Assembly (NCBI GenBank): GCA_036493895.1
Contig: DASXOZ010000017.1
Location: 62,001 to 126,000 of the forward strand
Direction of reading: 5' to 3'
From: Candidatus Binatia bacterium
Lineage (GTDB): Bacteria > Desulfobacterota > Binatia > UBA1149 > CAITLU01
DNA: 64,000 bases
Made by a program: the position numbers and the translations under genes. Position 1 is the first letter of the stretch; each line of letters opens with the position of its first letter. The notes below the pieces were generated by a model, which ran no database searches, was not told the DNA's origin, and was given only the letters and a program-made list of their open reading frames with translations. This document shows, piece by piece, positions 7,181 through 58,800 of the stretch.

Positions 7181-7996
7181 TCAAAAACCACCGCGGACAG
7201 CACGAGCGTTACAGTTGGTCGTCTTGTTGTTGACGTCCGCGTTGCCGCCTTCCGTGTTCGTGCCCCATCCGACGGCCGGAAGGCCCGAGATCGTGGAACC
7301 GGACCAATAGCCCGACGAAGCGTCGCAACTGCATCCCGGGTTCGTGAAGTCCGTACATGCCGGCCCGCAGTTCGCACCGTGGAATGCCACGTTGAGTGCC
7401 GGCGAGTCCGTGCCGTTGTCGATGATACTCGCTAACTCGTTCTTGTTCGGCAGCCGCCAGTCGCGATGCCCGGCGAAACCGCAGGCTCCTCCCAGAGCGC
7501 TGCAATCCGCGTTGGAGGCGCAAACCACCGCGGTATTGTGGTTGCATCGGTTGTTGAGCTGGTTGAGGAAGATCGTCTTCACCGTCCCGTCGTACGCGGT
7601 CTGAGAGCAGCACACCCCAGCCGACCAGGTATACTTGTTGTCCGCGTTATGCGGATTCGCGCAGGTTCCCGTTTCATCCCGGCAGCGTCTGCCGAGGCTG
7701 GTACCTTGTAGCTTATTGTCCGCGTTATGCGGATTGGCGCAGACTCCCGTCTCATCCGTGCAGCGTTTGCCGCCGCCGGTGCCTTGCACCTTCTTCTCCC
7801 ACATCAAGCCAGTGTTGTTGTCGGTGATTGTGCCGTCGTGGTTGTCGGTGAATGACTGCGCTGCACCGGCGCGCACCGCGCCGTCGTCGCCTGCGCCGTA
7901 GCTCGTCGTCTGGCCGGTAGCCGGGATGTGCTCGGTCGCGCAACCGCACGTAAATAGGATGCCGATGGCCACGAGGCCGGACGCTACGCTTCGCAC
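7181..7996 (-). CDS. DUF1566 (Lcl C-terminal) lipoprotein
   Basis: A 271-residue lipoprotein read on the minus strand. GTG at 7996-7994 is the start because GGGAGG lies six bases upstream and it opens a lipoprotein signal (GILFTCGC, then ATEHIPA). The body is a DUF1566 domain: FTDNHDGTITDNNTGLMWEKK near the N-terminus, GHRDWRLPNKNELASI in the middle and the terminal RAVRGG signature. In the family this is a C-type-lectin-like fold found on cell surfaces. A 26-codon segment containing DETGxCANPHNADNK is tandemly duplicated. A CASNADC motif links it to its Cys-rich neighbours. It converges on the dockerin gene with 77 bp between stops. Confidence 0.87.
   Translation of the reverse strand: MRSVASGLVAIGILFTCGCATEHIPATGQTTSYGAGDDGAVRAGAAQSFTDNHDGTITDNNTGLMWEKKVQGTGGGKRCTDETGVCANPHNADNKLQGTSLGRRCRDETGTCANPHNADNKYTWSAGVCCSQTAYDGTVKTIFLNQLNNRCNHNTAVVCASNADCSALGGACGFAGHRDWRLPNKNELASIIDNGTDSPALNVAFHGANCGPACTDFTNPGCSCDASSGYWSGSTISGLPAVGWGTNTEGGNADVNNKTTNCNARAVRGGF
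7636..7791 (-). repeat. 78-bp tandem duplication inside the DUF1566 gene
   Basis: Two copies with a period of 78 bp (26 codons); the shared core TCCGCGTTATGCGGATT begins at 7641 and 7719 on the plus strand. The period is a multiple of three, so the reading frame is kept. Confidence 0.85.
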
Positions 7997-34524: not shown

Positions 34525-34650
34525 GAATGGGGTCAGGCACCAGAGGAATAATGTCTGGCACCAGGGGAATGGGGTCAGGCACCAGGGGAATGATGTCTGG
34601 CACCAGGGGAATGGGGTCAGGCACCATTCCTCTGGTGCCTGACCCCATTC
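34525..34650. repeat. Alternating 21-bp repeats closed by an inverted copy
   Basis: Five 21-bp units alternate between AATGGGGTCAGGCACCAGGG and AATGATGTCTGGCACCAGGG forms at 34526, 34547, 34568, 34589 and 34610 (the last shortened). The last unit runs into an inverted copy. The outer arms 34525-34549 and 34626-34650 are a perfect 25-bp inverted repeat, so the array can fold into a long hairpin. The period of seven codons keeps both strands open. It lies between the FMN-barrel gene and the DUF1214 gene. Confidence 0.92.
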
Positions 34651-37961: not shown

Positions 37962-38633
37962 GTGGACATCCAGAGCATTCGTCCCGCGACGGCTTTCTTC
38001 CTGTTGTTGCCGCTTCTGGCGGGTTCGTGTGCGAAGCCCGCGGAACCCGTTTCCAAGACGGCCATTCACGAGGCCGCCCAGGCCGGCGATCTCAAGGGCG
38101 TCGAAGCGGCGCTCGCGGCCGGCGTCAGCGTCAATGCAAAAGGGCGAAGCGATGCAACGCCGCTGCATCACGCGGTATTCGGCGACAAGCCCGACATCAT
38201 CCGCTTCCTGGCTTCCAAGGGCGCAACGGTCGATGCCCTCGACGGCAGCGACCGTACGCCGCTGCACTACGCCGCTTCCAACGGGTTCCTCGATTGCGTC
38301 ACGGCGCTGCTCGACGTCGGCGCCGATCCTGACGTACGCAACGCGTACGGATACTCGCCGCTTGCCGCAGCCGCGATGGAAGGCCGCGTCGAGGTCATCA
38401 AGCTTCTGGTCTCGAGAGGCGCGAGCGTCGATCTTCCGGACCTTGCGTCGAAGACGCCTCTCGATTTTGCGCTCAAGCAACGACAGGACGCCGCGGCTCG
38501 CGCGCTCGTCGAAGCGGGTGCCGACGTCAACTCCGTCGATCGCGAAGGTAGACGGCCGCTGACCGAGGCGCGGGCCCGCGGCTGCGATCCGTCCACGCTC
38601 GATTTTCTCGTTGCGCACGGGGCGCACGATTGA
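37962..38633 (+). CDS. Ankyrin-repeat lipoprotein
   Basis: A 223-residue lipoprotein. GTG 37962 opens a signal ending in LLAGSC, so the mature protein is lipid-anchored. Five or six ankyrin repeats follow (residues about 33-215): AIHEAAQAGDLKGVEAALAA, TPLHHAVFGDKPDIIRFLAS, TPLHYAASNGFLDCVTALLD, SPLAAAAMEGRVEVIKLLVS, and TPLDFALKQRQDAAARALVE. It is probably an envelope protein-binding scaffold. Its stop codon abuts a cluster of palindromic repeats. Confidence 0.9.
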   Translation: MDIQSIRPATAFFLLLPLLAGSCAKPAEPVSKTAIHEAAQAGDLKGVEAALAAGVSVNAKGRSDATPLHHAVFGDKPDIIRFLASKGATVDALDGSDRTPLHYAASNGFLDCVTALLDVGADPDVRNAYGYSPLAAAAMEGRVEVIKLLVSRGASVDLPDLASKTPLDFALKQRQDAAARALVEAGADVNSVDREGRRPLTEARARGCDPSTLDFLVAHGAHD

Positions 38634-38634
38634 T

Positions 38635-38725
38635 GGGGACAGGCACCAGCCGCATCGTTGGGGACAGGCACCAGCCGCATCATCTCGGCGCTGACGCACA
38701 GTTGATGCGGCTGGTGCCTGTCCCC
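38635..38725. repeat. GGGGACAGGCACC repeat cluster between convergent stops
   Basis: Two direct 25-bp units (from 38635 and 38660; core GGGGACAGGCACCAGCCGCA) and one inverted copy at 38704-38725 that is the exact complement of 22 bp in each. The cluster fills the space between the ankyrin stop (38631-38633) and the convergent gene's stop (38727-38729). It can form a long hairpin in either transcript and probably serves as a terminator. The core is closely related to the GGGGTCAGGCACC array at 34525. Confidence 0.92.
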
Positions 38726-44951: not shown

Positions 44952-45218
44952 ATGAACATCTCCCTGACGAAGGAACTCGAAGAGTTCATCACCAGCAAGG
45001 TTGGCTCAGGTCGCTACCTGTCGGCGAGCGAGGTCGTCAGGGCGGGCCTTCGGCTCTTGGAACACGAGGAAGAACTCCTCGAACTGCAGCGGGTCGAGCT
45101 TCGCCGGGCGATCGCCGTCGGCGTCGGCCAGCTTGATCGCGGCGAGGCGGTCTCGGGCGCGGAGGTATTTGCGAAGGCTCGAAAGAAACTACGCGCGCGC
45201 CGCACCGCGGCCAAGTGA
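44952..45218 (+). CDS. parD: ParD-type antitoxin
   Basis: An 88-residue ribbon-helix-helix antitoxin. The N-terminal MNISLTKELEEFITSKVGSG and YLSASEVVRAGLRLLE are the standard ParD/CopG DNA-binding and dimer segment. The C-terminal half (SGAEVFAKARKKL) is the toxin-binding part. It would repress its own operon through the palindromes upstream. It overlaps the toxin gene by 4 bp. Its toxin partner is frameshifted, so the antitoxin may be orphaned. Confidence 0.9.
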   Translation: MNISLTKELEEFITSKVGSGRYLSASEVVRAGLRLLEHEEELLELQRVELRRAIAVGVGQLDRGEAVSGAEVFAKARKKLRARRTAAK

Positions 45219-46056: not shown

Positions 46057-46320
46057 ATGGTCACCGTTTCCGCACTTGAAGCCAAAACCCGGCTCGGCAA
46101 GCTCCTCGATCGCGTGGCACGTGGGGAAGAGATCGTCATTACGCGGCACGAGAAACCCGTGGCTCGTATGGTCCCGGCGGGGCCAAAGAATGCAGCCACG
46201 GTGCGCCGCGCGGTGGCGGATCTCGCGCGACTGCGAGATCGGATCAGGACACGAAGCAAGGGACGGGCGAAGTTGTCGGCGAGAGACGTCCGGTCTGCGA
46301 TCGAGGAAGGCCGGCTTTGA
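46057..46320 (+). CDS. Phd/YefM-family antitoxin
   Basis: An 87-residue antitoxin. The N-terminal half is standard Phd: MVTVSALEAKTRLGKLLDRV, ARGEEIVITRHEKPVARMVP. The C-terminal part (KLSARDVRSAIEEGRL) binds the toxin. It overlaps the next gene by 4 bp, as typical, and is preceded by a perfect palindrome that it probably binds. Intact, unlike the upstream ParDE module. Confidence 0.93.
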   Translation: MVTVSALEAKTRLGKLLDRVARGEEIVITRHEKPVARMVPAGPKNAATVRRAVADLARLRDRIRTRSKGRAKLSARDVRSAIEEGRL

Positions 46321-46736
46321 CCACTGGATTCGTCGCCGATGCGTCCGTCGCAATCGCGTGGGTTCATCCGGGGCAGGCCACCGCGGAATCGGATGCTCTA
46401 CTCCAAGCCGTCGAGAAAGGTGCCCGCGTGAGGGCGCCGGCGCTCTGGCCGCTGGAGACCGCCAACGCGCTTCTCGTGCTGACGAGGCGCGGCAAGTTGA
46501 CCGAAGGGGATCGTCGCCTTGCGCTTTCCGCGTTGTCGGGCCTTCAGGTCGAGCTCGACCATGAGATGGCAGCTCTTGCCTATGGAAAACTGTCGGACCT
46601 CGCGCGAAAGTATCGATTGAGCGTCTACGACGCGTCTTATCTCGAGCTCGCCTTGCGAAACGAGCTTCCGCTGGCATGCAAGGACGGCCCGCTACGCGAT
46701 GCGGCCAAGCGGTGTCGCGTCAGGCTCGCCATGTGA
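46317..46736 (+). CDS. vapC: PIN-domain (VapC-type) toxin
   Basis: A 139-residue PIN-domain ribonuclease toxin. Acidic residues are in place: FVADASVAIAW (Asp8), WPLETANALL (Glu), YDASYLELAL (Asp) and CKDGPLRDAAK (Asp). VapC enzymes cleave tRNA or rRNA when released from the antitoxin. GTG or TTG initiation at 46317 overlaps the antitoxin stop. Confidence 0.92.
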   Translation: MTTGFVADASVAIAWVHPGQATAESDALLQAVEKGARVRAPALWPLETANALLVLTRRGKLTEGDRRLALSALSGLQVELDHEMAALAYGKLSDLARKYRLSVYDASYLELALRNELPLACKDGPLRDAAKRCRVRLAM

Positions 46737-46930: not shown

Positions 46931-48790
46931 CTAGAAGTAGCCGCCTTCGGTCGAGTCGGCGACCTTGGTCGGCGGCTTGCGCCCCTTGATGTTCTTTCCG
47001 GTGATCATGTCCTTGTAGCCCATGCCCGGTCCGATCATCGGGTAGACGTGCTCGCGCTGGTCCACCATCACTTCGAGCAGCCCGGCCCCCTCGAACTTGA
47101 CGAACTCCTCGAGCGCCGATGCAAGCGCCTCGCGGCTCGTCACACGCTTGGCGAATCCGAAGCCGTCCGCTTCGGCCGCGCGCACGAAGTCCTTCTTGTG
47201 AAGAGTCTTGTCCGAGCCGGAGTAGCGATTGGCGTAGAACAGGTCCTGCCACTGGCGAACCATGCCGTCGCCCATGTTGTTGAGCAGCAGCACCTTGACC
47301 GGAATCCCGTAGTTCGTCAGCGTCTCCAGCTCTCCGAGGTTCATGCGGATGCTGCCGTCGCCGTCGACGTCGATCACGAGGCGACCGGGATTGGCGAGCT
47401 GGGCACCGATGGCCGCCGGCAACCCGAAACCCATCGTTCCCATGCTTCCCGAAGTCAGCCAGTCGCGCGGATTCTTGAAATCGATGTACTGGGCCGCCCA
47501 CATCTGGTGCTGCCCGACGCCCGTGGCGACGATCGCCTCGCCGTGCGTCAGCCGGTTGAGCAGCTCGAGCACTTCTTCCTGCTGGATGTCCTTGCTGGTC
47601 TTGTCGTAAGCCAGCGGATGTTCCTGCCTCAGCTTGGCGACGTGCTCGCGCCAGGGGCCGAAATCCTTGCGGAACGATTTGCCGGCTTCCAGGAGCTCGG
47701 CCAGGCCGCGGCGCGCGTCGCAGACGAAGCTCCAGTCCACGCCCTTGACCTTGCCGATCTCGGACGCGTCGACGTCGAGGTGCGCGATCTTCGCGCCCGG
47801 TGCGAATTCCTTGACCTTGCCGGCCACGCGATCGTCGAAGCGGGCGCCGACGGCGAACAGCAAATCGCAGTCCTCCACGGCGTAGTTCGCGTACGCGGTG
47901 CCGTGCATGCCGAGCATGTGCAGCGCCAGCGGGTGCGTCGTGTCGATCGACCCGATGCCCATGAGCGTGGTCACGACCGGAATGCCGAAGCGCTCGGCGA
48001 AGCGGCGCAGCTCGCCGGCGGCCTCCGAGTTCGGCACGCCGCCGCCGACGTAGAGCAGCGGCCGTTCCGAGCGAGACAGCATCTCGTAGAACGCCTTGGC
48101 GAGCGCGGGGTCGAGGTGCGTGCGCGACTGTTCGACGCGGCGCTCGTCGTAGCCTCGAAGACGAAGCAGCCCTGCGCCGCGGAATGCCTGCTGCGTGAGC
48201 TGCACGTCGCGCGGGATGTCGACGACCACGGGACCGGGGCGACCGCTGCGCGCGATTTCGAAGGCGCTGCGCATCGTCTCCTCGATCTTCGTCTCGTCGG
48301 TCAGCAGGAAGACGTGCTTGGCGCACGGCGACATGATGTTGAACACCGGCGCTTCCTGGAACGCGTCGGTGCCGATGGCGGCGCGCGGCACCTGGCCGCA
48401 GATCAGCACGATCGGGATGGAGTCGGCCTGGCAGTCGCGCACGGGCGTCACGGTGTTGGTCGCGCCCGGCCCGGACGTCACCAGCGCGACGCCCACGCGT
48501 CCGCTCGAGCGCGCATACCCGGCGGCCATGAAGCCGGCACCCTGCTCGGTGGCGGGCACCAGAAGGTTGATGCGACGGGCCGGATTGGCCTCGTTGTAAC
48601 GGAAGACGGCGTCGTAAGTCGGCAGGATGGCCCCGCCGCTGTAGCCGAAAATCGTGTCGACACCCTCGTCGGCCAGGACCTGTACAACCGCATCCGCTCC
48701 GGTCATGACGGTTCCGGCCATCGGGTGTGTGGCCTTGCCCGTAGCGAGTCCCAGGTGCTGGGCTCCGGATGTCTTGCGGCTGGTGGTCAT
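46931..48790 (-). CDS. ilvB: Acetolactate synthase, large (catalytic) subunit
   Basis: A 619-residue ThDP enzyme that condenses pyruvate to acetolactate in valine, leucine and isoleucine synthesis. Seen: GYSGGAILPTYD, catalytic Glu82 in VPATEQGAGFMA, TSGPGATNTVTPV, FDDRVAGK (FAD region) and VIDVDGDGSIRMNLGELETL (ThDP/Mg motif). AGGAAAGG precedes the ATG at 48790. No small subunit (ilvN) or ilvC is adjacent. The first 28 residues precede the conserved TGADAVV start and may be disordered. The leader carries five 30-bp repeats. Confidence 0.95.
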   Translation of the reverse strand: MTTSRKTSGAQHLGLATGKATHPMAGTVMTGADAVVQVLADEGVDTIFGYSGGAILPTYDAVFRYNEANPARRINLLVPATEQGAGFMAAGYARSSGRVGVALVTSGPGATNTVTPVRDCQADSIPIVLICGQVPRAAIGTDAFQEAPVFNIMSPCAKHVFLLTDETKIEETMRSAFEIARSGRPGPVVVDIPRDVQLTQQAFRGAGLLRLRGYDERRVEQSRTHLDPALAKAFYEMLSRSERPLLYVGGGVPNSEAAGELRRFAERFGIPVVTTLMGIGSIDTTHPLALHMLGMHGTAYANYAVEDCDLLFAVGARFDDRVAGKVKEFAPGAKIAHLDVDASEIGKVKGVDWSFVCDARRGLAELLEAGKSFRKDFGPWREHVAKLRQEHPLAYDKTSKDIQQEEVLELLNRLTHGEAIVATGVGQHQMWAAQYIDFKNPRDWLTSGSMGTMGFGLPAAIGAQLANPGRLVIDVDGDGSIRMNLGELETLTNYGIPVKVLLLNNMGDGMVRQWQDLFYANRYSGSDKTLHKKDFVRAAEADGFGFAKRVTSREALASALEEFVKFEGAGLLEVMVDQREHVYPMIGPGMGYKDMITGKNIKGRKPPTKVADSTEGGYF

Positions 48791-48802
48791 GGTCCTTTCC
48801 TA

Positions 48803-48950
48803 TTTGATCCTCGCCCTTTCGGGCTGCGGATGTTTGATCCTCGCCCTGTCGGGCGCGGATGTTTGATCCTCGCCTTGTCGGGCTGCGGAGATTTGATCCT
48901 CGCCCTCTCGGGGTCCGGATGTTCGATCCTCGCCCTTTCGGGCGCGGATT
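48803..48950 (-). repeat. Five 30-bp repeats in the acetolactate synthase leader
   Basis: Units begin at 48803, 48833, 48862, 48892 and 48922 (TTTGATCCTCGCCCTTTCGG on plus). Read in the mRNA direction (minus), each has a short hairpin, GCCC-GAAA-GGGC or variants with GACA and GAGA loops, followed by GAGGATCAAA, which resembles a ribosome binding site. The last hairpin lies about 20 bases before the ilvB start. Confidence 0.9.
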
Positions 48951-49014
48951 GCTTGATTTGGGGCGGCACGGCGCCGCCCGAGCCAGCCACTATGACGCAA
49001 TCAGGCTGCGTTTC

Positions 49015-49452
49015 CTACGATCGGGACGGGGGAGCGGTGGCCGCGGACTGGCGGCGGTGATGCTCCTTCAGGATGCACCGGTCCACGACCACCAGCAGGC
49101 CTGCAGACCGGGCCCGGGCTGCAGCATCTTCGTCGATGACCCCTTCCTGAAGCCACACGGCGCGGGCGCCGATCGCGATGGCCTCATCAACCGCGGCGCC
49201 GGCTTCGGCGGAGCGGCGGAACACGTCGACGACATCCACCGGCTCGGGCACCGCGTGAAGGTCCGGGTGACAGGGAATCCCGAAAACCGATTGGTAGAGA
49301 GGGTTTACCAGCGAAACCTTAAACCCCTGCCTGATCAGATATCCGGCGACTTCGTTAGACGGTCGCTGCGGGTTTTCCGAGATCCCGACGACGGCGATGT
49401 GCCGCATCATCGACAGGATCGCATCGATCGCGGGCTGCTGGGGATCGTTCAT
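49015..49452 (-). CDS. CoA-binding domain protein (YccU type)
   Basis: A 145-residue Rossmann-like CoA-binding protein. Seen: RHIAVVGISENPQRPSNEVA, GYLIRQGFKVSLVNP, VDVVDVFRRSAEAG, and ARAVWLQEGVID. Small stand-alone members may sense acyl-CoA. ATG 49452 is chosen over the frame start at 49530 because it fits family length. It is oriented like ilvB and lies upstream of its repeat leader. Confidence 0.9.
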   Translation of the reverse strand: MNDPQQPAIDAILSMMRHIAVVGISENPQRPSNEVAGYLIRQGFKVSLVNPLYQSVFGIPCHPDLHAVPEPVDVVDVFRRSAEAGAAVDEAIAIGARAVWLQEGVIDEDAAARARSAGLLVVVDRCILKEHHRRQSAATAPPSRS

Positions 49453-49654
49453 GGCGGGGTCCGCAGGTACTGGTGATCGGGCTGATGGGACTGTCGCGGC
49501 AAGCATGGGGACGGTGCGCGCCATCGGCAAGCGTTGGCGACCGGCCGGCCCCGGGGCATGCCCGCGGGCAAGTTATTGCTCCCGCCGCAGTCCCGGACAG
49601 ATACGCGGCGTCGCCATTCGCAACGTGTCCCTGTCCCGGATTTCGGAGGTCCCG

Positions 49655-55880: not shown

Positions 55881-58800
55881 CGCGGGCATCGCAACGGTCG
55901 GCCGCGGCACGGTGGCCTCTGGTCGCGATGGGCCTGGTCTTGTGGGCCGGCATCGCGGCGGCTGCAGACGTGCACGTGACCGCGCTCGGCGATCGTGGCC
56001 CCGGCACCCTGCGCGAAGCGGTCGAGAAGGCCTCGCCCGGCGACACCGTGCACATCGACGTCCCGGGCGTGATCCGCCTGACGACCGGCGAAATCCAGAT
56101 CTCGCGCCCGATGACGATCGAAGGGCCCGGGGCGGACAAAACCTCGGTGTCGGGAGACGACCAGTACCGCATCTTCAGCATCCCCGTGCGCGAGCCGACG
56201 CCGAAAGTGAAGATCAGCCGCCTCGCCGTGATCCGCGGGCGCAGCGACGAGCGCGGCGGAGCGATCGTCAACGCGGCCGACCTCGAGCTCGACGGCGTGC
56301 TCGTCGATTCCTGCCGCGGCGACCTGGCCGGCGGCATCTACAATACAGGCCAGCTTTCGATCACGAGCAGCACGATTTCCCACAATCGCGGCTCCCTGGC
56401 CGGCGGCATCTACAACACCGGCGACGCGACGCTCGTCAACGTGACCGTCAGCGGCAATTTCGGCGAGCTGAGCGGGGGCGGGATCTACAACGCGACCGAC
56501 GCCAACGTCACGCCCAAGCGCGTCGCGCACATCGAGATTTCCAGCTGCACGATCACCGACAACCGGGTCGGCGCCGACGCGGCCGGAATCTTCAATCTCG
56601 GCGGCCAGGTGCATATCCGCAACTCGATCGTCGCCGACAACAAGAAAGGCGGCAACTGCATCGGCGCGCTGCTTTCGCTCGGGCACAACATCGACGACGA
56701 CGGCTCGTGCCGTCTCGCGTCGCCGGGCGACATTCGCCCCGGCCGCGACGTCGGTCTTGCGCGTCTGGACATGAACGGCGGCGGCACGCCGACCCACGCG
56801 CTGATCGTCGGCAGCCCTGCCATCGATGCCGGCGACAACGCGTCGTGCCCGAAGGACGACCAGCGCGGCTTCACGCGCGACGTCAGCGGCGATGGAAAGG
56901 GCACCGGGCGCTGCGACATCGGCGCGTTCGAGGCGCTGCTGAGCTGGTGCGGCAACGGCGTCGTGCAGCCGGGCGAGGAGTGCGACGACGGAAACCTCGT
57001 CGACGGCGACGGCTGCGATCGAAGCTGTCGCAGGGAAGTCTGCGGCAACGGCATCGTGCAGAGCGGCGAGGAATGCGACGACGGCAACACGGTCTCCGGC
57101 GACGGCTGCGACAGCGTCTGCCTGCGCGAAATCTGCGGCAACGGCGTGCTCCAGGCCGGCGAGGAGTGCGACGACGGCAACGTCGAGAACGGCGACGGCT
57201 GCGACTCGCATTGCCGCCGCGAGCCTTGCGGCGACGGCATCGTCGGTGCCGGCGAGCAGTGCGACGACGGCAACCTCGTCGACGGTGACGGCTGCGACTC
57301 GACCTGCCACAAGGAGGAGTGCGGCAACGCGATCGTGCAGGCCAACGAAGAGTGCGACGACGGCAACCTGCGCAACGGTGACGGCTGCGATTCGCACTGC
57401 CGGCGCGAGACCTGCGGCAACGGCGTCGTCCAGGGCTCCGAGGAGTGCGACGACGGCAACACCGCTGCCAACGACGGCTGCGATCCCACCTGCCGCAAGG
57501 AACGGTGCGGCGACGGCAAGAAGCAGACGAAAGAAGAGTGCGACGACGGCAACACCGCGGGCGGCGACGGCTGCGATCCGACTTGTCATCGCGAGGTTTG
57601 CGGCAATGGGCTGCTGCAGGCGGGCGAGGAGTGCGACGACGGCAACGTGACGGCCGGCGACGGCTGCGATCCGCATTGTCGCAAGGAAGTCTGCGGCAAC
57701 GGGCTGCTGCAGGCGGGCGAAGAGTGCGACGACGGCAACAGCACCGCCGGCGACGGCTGCGACCCGACCTGCCGCCGCGAGATCTGCGGCAACGGCCTCG
57801 TGCAGGCCGGCGAAGAATGCGACGACGGCAACCACATCGCCGGCGACGGCTGCGACCCTTCGTGCAAGAAGGAAGTCTGCGGCAACGGCATCGTGCAGAA
57901 GGGCGAGGAGTGCGACGACGGCAACAGCGTCGCCGGCGACGGTTGTGACCCGACCTGCCACAAGGAGGTCTGCGGCAACGGCATCCTCCAGGCCGGCGAA
58001 GGCTGCGACGACGGCAACCTCGTCGATCACGACGGCTGCGATTCGCGCTGCCGCGTCGAAGCGTGCGGCAACGGTCGCGTCGACAGCGGCGAAGAGTGCG
58101 ACGACGGCAACCAGAAGAACGGCGACGGCTGCACCGCCGAATGCAAGCTCGAGCGCTGCGGCGACGGCGTCGTCAACGATGGCGGCAAGGAGCAGTGCGA
58201 CGACGGCAACAACGCCGACGGCGACGGCTGCGACCACGACTGCAGGCGCGAATTCTGCGGCGACGGGGTCGTCAACGACGGAGGCAAGGAGCAGTGCGAC
58301 GACGGCAACAGCGTCTCGGGCGACGGCTGCACGCCCGACTGCGTCAAGGAGCGCTGCGGCGACGGCATCGTCAATGACGGCGGCAAGGAGCAGTGCGACG
58401 ACGGCAACGACGTTGCCGGCGACGGCTGTACTCCCGACTGCATCAAGGAGCGCTGCGGCGACGGCATCGTCAACAACAGCGGCACCGAGGAGTGCGACGA
58501 CGGCAACACGTCACCGGGAGACGGCTGCACGCCGCTTTGCCGCAAGGAGTTCTGCGGCGACGGCATCATCAACAACAACGGTCGCGAGCAGTGCGACGAC
58601 GGCAACAGCATTGCCGGTGACGGCTGCACACCAAAATGTGTACTCGAGCGCTGCGGCGACGGCATCGTCAACAACAACGGCATGGAGGAATGCGACGACG
58701 GCAACGCGGTCAACGGCGACGGCTGCGACGTGTTCTGCCACAAGGAGGCGCCTCCGCCTCCACCACCGCCGTCGACACCGCCGCCTGCTGCGCCCGTAGC

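Follow-up and report, generated by a model that had tools for sequence, protein, structure and literature searches.

A probable REP-like insertion family, restricted to one genus of Binatia and placed beside Shine-Dalgarno sequences, accounts for a repeated hairpin in an ilvB leader

The leader of an ilvB gene in a Candidatus Binatia genome contains a tandem array of short hairpin units, and units of the same kind precede eight other unrelated genes in this genome and a congener. We consider it probable that the array is a copy of a genus-restricted, REP-like mobile palindrome that was inserted 5' of Shine-Dalgarno (SD) sequences and then tandemly amplified. Our overall verdict, held with the same moderate confidence, is a genus-restricted REP-like insertion family whose SD-adjacent placement is unusual. 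The stretch of 64,000 nucleotides that was analyzed is referred to as the window, the genome to which it belongs (98.9% complete) as G000, and the single congener examined as G001.

The tandem array upstream of ilvB is real. TRF placed it at 48803-48957, with a period of 30, 5.2 copies, and a score of 217, and a repeat search of the leader recovered five copies with spacings of 29, 30, 30, and 30. The array (consensus unit, ATCCGCAGCCCGAAAGGGCGAGGATCAAAC) is 148 nt long (48950-48803, − strand) and lies 12 nt 5' of the ATG at 48790 (Table 1); the product of the gene 3' of it is an acetolactate-synthase-type TPP enzyme with three TPP domains. The pattern GGGCGAGGATC occurs 15 times in the G000 genome versus once for its reversed control, and a 61-nt double unit from the ilvB array matches four other loci with E values of 1.5e-19 to 1.7e-9. 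The array is not a chance repeat, and these genome-wide matches, together with TRF and the repeat search, confirm the five units of about 30 nt that the initial annotation had described. A repeat peptide was rejected because the unit spacing (29/30 at ilvB and 26 in C70) breaks the reading frame. A known RNA family was likewise rejected, as an Rfam search of the array returned no family at the gathering score, the best match being rnk_pseudo on the opposite strand (25.2 bits versus 55). A scan around the array found no terminator-like site.

Table 1. Features of the ilvB locus in window coordinates (CM, covariance model)
Feature	Coordinates	Strand	Basis
Unit 1 (5'-most), AATCCGCGCCCGAAAGGGCGAGGATCGAAC	48921..48950	-	Repeat searches; CM match 48921-48953
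Unit 2, ATCCGGACCCCGAGAGGGCGAGGATCAAAT	48891..48920	-	Repeat searches; CM match C17:110891-110924
Unit 3, CTCCGCAGCCCGACAAGGCGAGGATCAAAC	48861..48890	-	CM match 48861-48894
Unit 4 (29 nt), ATCCGCGCCCGACAGGGCGAGGATCAAAC	48832..48860	-	Repeat search; CM match C17:110832-110864
Unit 5 (adjoins SD), ATCCGCAGCCCGAAAGGGCGAGGATCAAA	48803..48831	-	CM match 48802-48835, 51.7 bits
SD region directly 3' of array, AGGAAAGGA	48793..48801	-	Sequence
ilvB-type acetolactate synthase, 619 aa	46931..48790	-	ORF; TPP_enzyme N/M/C domains
GC-rich hairpin GGGCGGC-GCCGT-GCCGCCC, without U tract, 5' of array	48961..48979	-	Sequence and fold
Promoter-like block TAGGAA-17 nt-CATAGT	49017-48989	-	Conserved upstream of ilvB in six genomes
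CoA-binding protein gene upstream of ilvB	49015..49461	-	CoA_binding_2

Folded alone, a typical unit is predicted to form the two-part hairpin AUCC-GCA-GCCC-loop-GGGC-GA-GGAU, in which the helices AUCC/GGAU and GCCC/GGGC flank a conserved GCA/GA internal loop; degenerate units fold more poorly relative to shuffled sequence. The initial annotation had proposed a GCCC-GAAA-GGGC hairpin followed by an SD-like tail. The hairpin stands, but it is larger, and the supposed tail (GAGGATCAAA) is largely its lower stem: as AUCC pairs with GGAU, GAGGAU lies mostly in that stem and no free tail is left. Across 22 units from the two genomes, standard pairing holds in 93.2% of pair cells, compared with 26-49% once the partners are shifted by one to three columns; double-sided changes in the stems number only two, and covariation support is therefore weak.

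This fold bears on two functions that had been suggested for the repeated motif. If the units acted as decoy or standby sites for ribosomes, 30S subunits would be captured at every GAGGAU and fed to the real SD, and both the GAGGA in nearly every unit and the nearby SD would suit such a role; however, in most units the predicted fold pairs GAGGAU with AUCC, and loci with a single unit exist, which makes this reading very improbable. The five GGA motifs near hairpins had also suggested a multisite platform for CsrA/RsmA, yet GGA falls in the predicted stem rather than the loop, and no CsrA family match was found in G000 despite its completeness, nor in G001. With csrA undetected in both genomes, the platform is largely refuted and retains hardly any probability.

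DNA and covariance searches located the unit at five loci in G000 (contigs C12, C17, C48, C70, and C72) and at four in G001 (C2, C8, C39, and C34), corresponding to 15 and four covariance model matches, respectively; the weak G001 matches that were inspected all lay inside long frames. Among 148 genomes of the class, the model found the unit only in G000 and G001, apart from one isolated weak match without the GAGGAT end, and in a phylum sample of 395 genomes it was found in G000 only. Scans for the exact pattern, in collections from which records very close to the G000 genome may be absent, yielded just single copies inside open frames across 84,980 GTDB species and three matches in viral contigs, each single and nontandem. 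A wider spread was rejected on the basis of these open-frame and nontandem matches, and the unit appears to be restricted to one genus, where it occurs in two congeneric species.

At all nine loci, the array lies in sense orientation beside the SD and ends 12 to 18 nt before the ATG, with one to five tandem units per locus. In G000, domain searches identified the target genes as encoding a class IV aminotransferase of the ilvE type (C12), IlvB (C17), an acetoacetate decarboxylase family protein (C48; four units), a polyketide cyclase-like/SRPBCC protein (C70), and a CXXCH cytochrome (C72). Those in G001 encode a YflT-like protein (C2), a NIL-domain protein (C39; domain search), and, by sequence only, a pyridoxamine-oxidase-like (PNPOx-like, here PNP) protein (C8; two units) and a bacterioferritin-like protein (C34). 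The nine genes are unrelated and share no common pathway. At C12 and G001-C39, the unit falls inside the last part of the coding frame upstream, and the C48 array begins directly after the upstream stop codon; since the upstream frame runs through the unit or ends right before it, these units are likely part of a shared transcript. Such positions argue against an array of DNA operators at which a dimeric transcription factor would bind the palindrome, as do the location of the ilvB units downstream of a promoter-like block and the fixed orientation, which a symmetric operator would not need. The imperfect dyad symmetry and the spacing of about 30 bp are what an operator array would predict, but overall we regard it as improbable.

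How the unit came to lie so consistently beside SDs is less easily explained. On rough gene calls within the 64-kb window only, SDs make up 29% of noncoding AGGA sites and 47% of AGGAG sites, and by a rough count the chance of SD placement at 9/9 loci under AGGA targeting alone is about 1e-5 to 1e-3. Targeting of AGGA alone is therefore insufficient, and strong selection or another targeting rule would be needed. A literature search, mostly outside subscription journals, found no described repeat family with SD-adjacent placement. At the acetoacetate decarboxylase gene of G001 (G001:C5:15000-15800), a different palindrome (GGGGACAGGTACATTTAAAA ... TTTTAAATGTACCTGTCCCC) lies between the upstream gene and the SD.

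Relatives were located for eight target genes, and their leaders were read and searched for the unit, which was absent from all leaders read; none of the eight comparable target genes (0/8) has the array in both G000 and G001. The ilvB gene is no exception: the initial annotation had looked to conservation upstream of other ilvB genes as the test of its reading, and covariance searches found no unit in the ilvB leaders of five relatives (G001, G002, G004, G005, and G006). Regulation specific to ilvB is thus contradicted both by these relatives and by the unit's presence before eight other unrelated genes.

Two leaders contain empty sites. At the NIL gene, the site is exact to the base, with GCGCAA[GATCCACAGCCCGCGAGGGCGAGGATCGAA]TAGGAATCCCTCATG in G001 versus AACAAATAGGATCAACCCATG in G002; the difference is a 30-nt insertion with no target duplication, and the T of TAGGA lies 12 nt from the ATG in both genomes. 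The second site, at the PNP gene, is close: G001 reads GGCAAGCCGG, two units, and ACAGGAG..ATG, versus GGCAAGCCGGCCAATACGGAG..ATG in G000, where GGCAAGCCGGCCAATACGGAGGTTCCGATG stands opposite GGCAAGCCGG and the two units. This G000 copy of the gene lies within the window and has no unit upstream. The remaining leaders are too divergent for base-exact comparison. Single-strand, IS200/IS605-like insertion, which would be marked by a fixed strand, a short target at one end, and no target duplication, may have left this exact 30-nt empty site and the close one, although selection could also account for the SD (AGG) at the right end. In addition, units are more alike inside a locus (identity, 0.81) than across loci (0.75; permutation p, 0.0006), as expected from a single insertion followed by tandem expansion.

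The ilvB array is probably transcribed as part of the 5'UTR, as the initial annotation had assumed, because a conserved promoter-like block lies upstream of it. The block has identical internal spacing in six genomes but no constant distance to the ATG; that distance is greatest in G000, in which the array intervenes. A consensus scan upstream of ilvB found no sigma-70-like site. The first half of the block (49017-48989) shares bases with the CoA-binding gene's stop codon. Occlusion of the SD by the array was rejected, since in silico the opening energy of the SD at ilvB hardly changes with loss of the array (4.5 versus 4.2 kcal/mol) and the effect at other loci is mixed. The array probably has a modest effect on ilvB expression, one without a link to branched-chain amino acids. 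Tandem riboswitches and ilvB attenuators are repeated structured leaders of branched-chain amino acid genes; the array differs from them in not being kept at ilvB in relatives, in being present at unrelated genes, and in matching no Rfam family at the gathering score. What survives of the proposed new regulatory RNA element is therefore a repeated hairpin array that belongs to no such family and is probably transcribed, and not a regulator specific to ilvB.

A broader regulatory role deserves consideration. A genus-specific posttranscriptional element, in which an RNA-binding protein, small RNA, or ribosome feature reads the SD-side hairpin and the number of units tunes a fast-changing regulon, would account for the sense, SD-adjacent placement at 9/9 loci at a near-constant distance from the start codon, for the conserved internal loop and the pairing in 93% of pair cells, and for units that probably lie within transcripts. 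Against it stand the lack of any comparable target bearing the array in both species, targets without a common pathway, an SD opening at ilvB that hardly depends on the array, and the weak covariation with its two double changes. We therefore consider this element unlikely. A conserved regulon of the nine genes also seems unlikely, as the targets share neither a pathway nor a comparable member common to both species, whereas the units may have some general effect on translation or on the stability of the mRNA.

Returning to the REP-like insertion, we propose that an imperfect palindrome of about 30 nt with a GCA/GA internal loop would insert directly 5' of an SD and then expand in place to one to five tandem units. 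Its movement would be REP-like, as single-stranded DNA, through a Y1/HUH transposase (RAYT or IS200-like) acting on the strand opposite the gene, with the insertion point after CCT in most loci; copies elsewhere may have been removed by selection or may never have arisen. In the ilvB mRNA, the outcome would be about 150 nt of stacked hairpins added to the leader, with SD accessibility about unchanged in silico. At most loci, the gene-antisense strand indeed has CCT, complementary to the SD AGG, in front of the unit. For TnpA_REP of Escherichia coli, the cleavage site on single-stranded REP is a CT located 5' or 3' of the structure, and GTAG is required; IS200/IS605 enzymes choose their sites by guide sequences 5' of palindromes (PMC8266576). 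The CCT before the unit fits an enzyme of the Y1/HUH type, yet it is confounded with selection for keeping the SD. It is possible, though doubtful, that insertion is directed to SDs through this opposite-strand CCT and that the palindrome passes between genes as a ready-made hairpin leader, expandable in tandem, that spares translation.

Candidate enzymes are present, with Y1_Tnp genes on contigs C59 and C77 of G000 and one in G001; the C77 and G001 genes share 49% identity, and the C59 gene is about 30% identical to either. Upstream of the C59 gene stand 9.7 copies of the 30-nt unit TGCTGTAGCGCAGCCCTTCAGGGCTGCCGA, which has GTAG and a hairpin. This array shares with the ilvB unit its 30-nt period, its tandem arrangement, and 17 of 20 core bases (on the opposite strand), a match equaled by 0.025% of trials in a crude null of random GC-rich hairpins; it differs in its GTAG, its longer perfect stem, and its occurrence at C59 only. 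As the adjoining unit differs and G001 lacks a close relative of the C59 enzyme, this enzyme was rejected as a proven mobilizer. No Y1 transposase gene in either genome is flanked by exactly the ilvB-type unit: the arrays that flank the C77 gene consist of the 21-nt GGGGTCAGGCACC, and the G001 gene has no array beside it. Contig C59 starts inside the 9.7-copy array, directly upstream of the Y1 gene (G000:C59:1-292), and the assembly probably broke at the 30-nt repeat. Within the window, arrays of the same family as the C77 flanks lie at 34525-34646 and 38635-38725, and copies of GGGGTCAGGCACC / GGGGACAGGCACC, both tandem and inverted, occur at 34525-34646 and 38623-38725.

REP elements and REPtrons (TnpA_REP/RAYT) of E. 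coli and Marinomonas (PMC8266576) are the closest parallel that we drew. They likewise are imperfect palindromes of 20 to 40 nt with unpaired stem positions, occur at several places per genome alongside Y1/HUH genes, and leave no target duplication, as at the exact empty site; the opposite-strand CT beside the insertion point recalls the cleavage at CT by the E. coli enzyme (PMC8266576). The ilvB-type unit is similarly short and dispersed, its nine loci lying between genes or at gene ends. It differs in its head-to-tail, one-direction arrays, its constant position 5' of an SD, a cognate transposase that is only a candidate, and the absence of a tag, as neither GTAG nor CGTC was found at the palindrome foot on either strand of the 22 aligned units. 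Copy number is high in neither G000 nor G001; REPs usually number >100 copies per genome (PMC2817692), whereas G000 has 15 model matches at five loci. GTAG- and CGTC-tagged palindromic repeats (PMC3733652) are also small dispersed palindromes without other homology, and the CGTC families include no transposase flanked by the same repeat (PMC3733652); the ilvB-type unit has neither tag and is solely SD adjacent.

If the placement reflects targeting, the unit would be a mobile element for which ribosome-binding sites are a safe place to insert time and again, and the 5'UTR structure supplied to unrelated genes would be a route to new leader regulation; if it reflects selection, the unit would be a portable translation or stability element. 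The nine loci and the relatives with empty sites make this question directly testable. The ilvB array also cautions that a repeated leader hairpin need not mean a pathway-specific regulator.

Other repeats and small genes were seen elsewhere in the window. Two 78-nt direct repeats (CTTATTGTCCGCGTTATGCGG...) lie at 7634-7786. Judged from the letters alone, a long tandem array of about 93 nt per repeat at 56947-58726 forms a large open frame with cysteine-rich repeats, and small frames at 44952-45218 and 46057-46736 resemble a ParD-type antitoxin and a Phd/PIN toxin-antitoxin pair.
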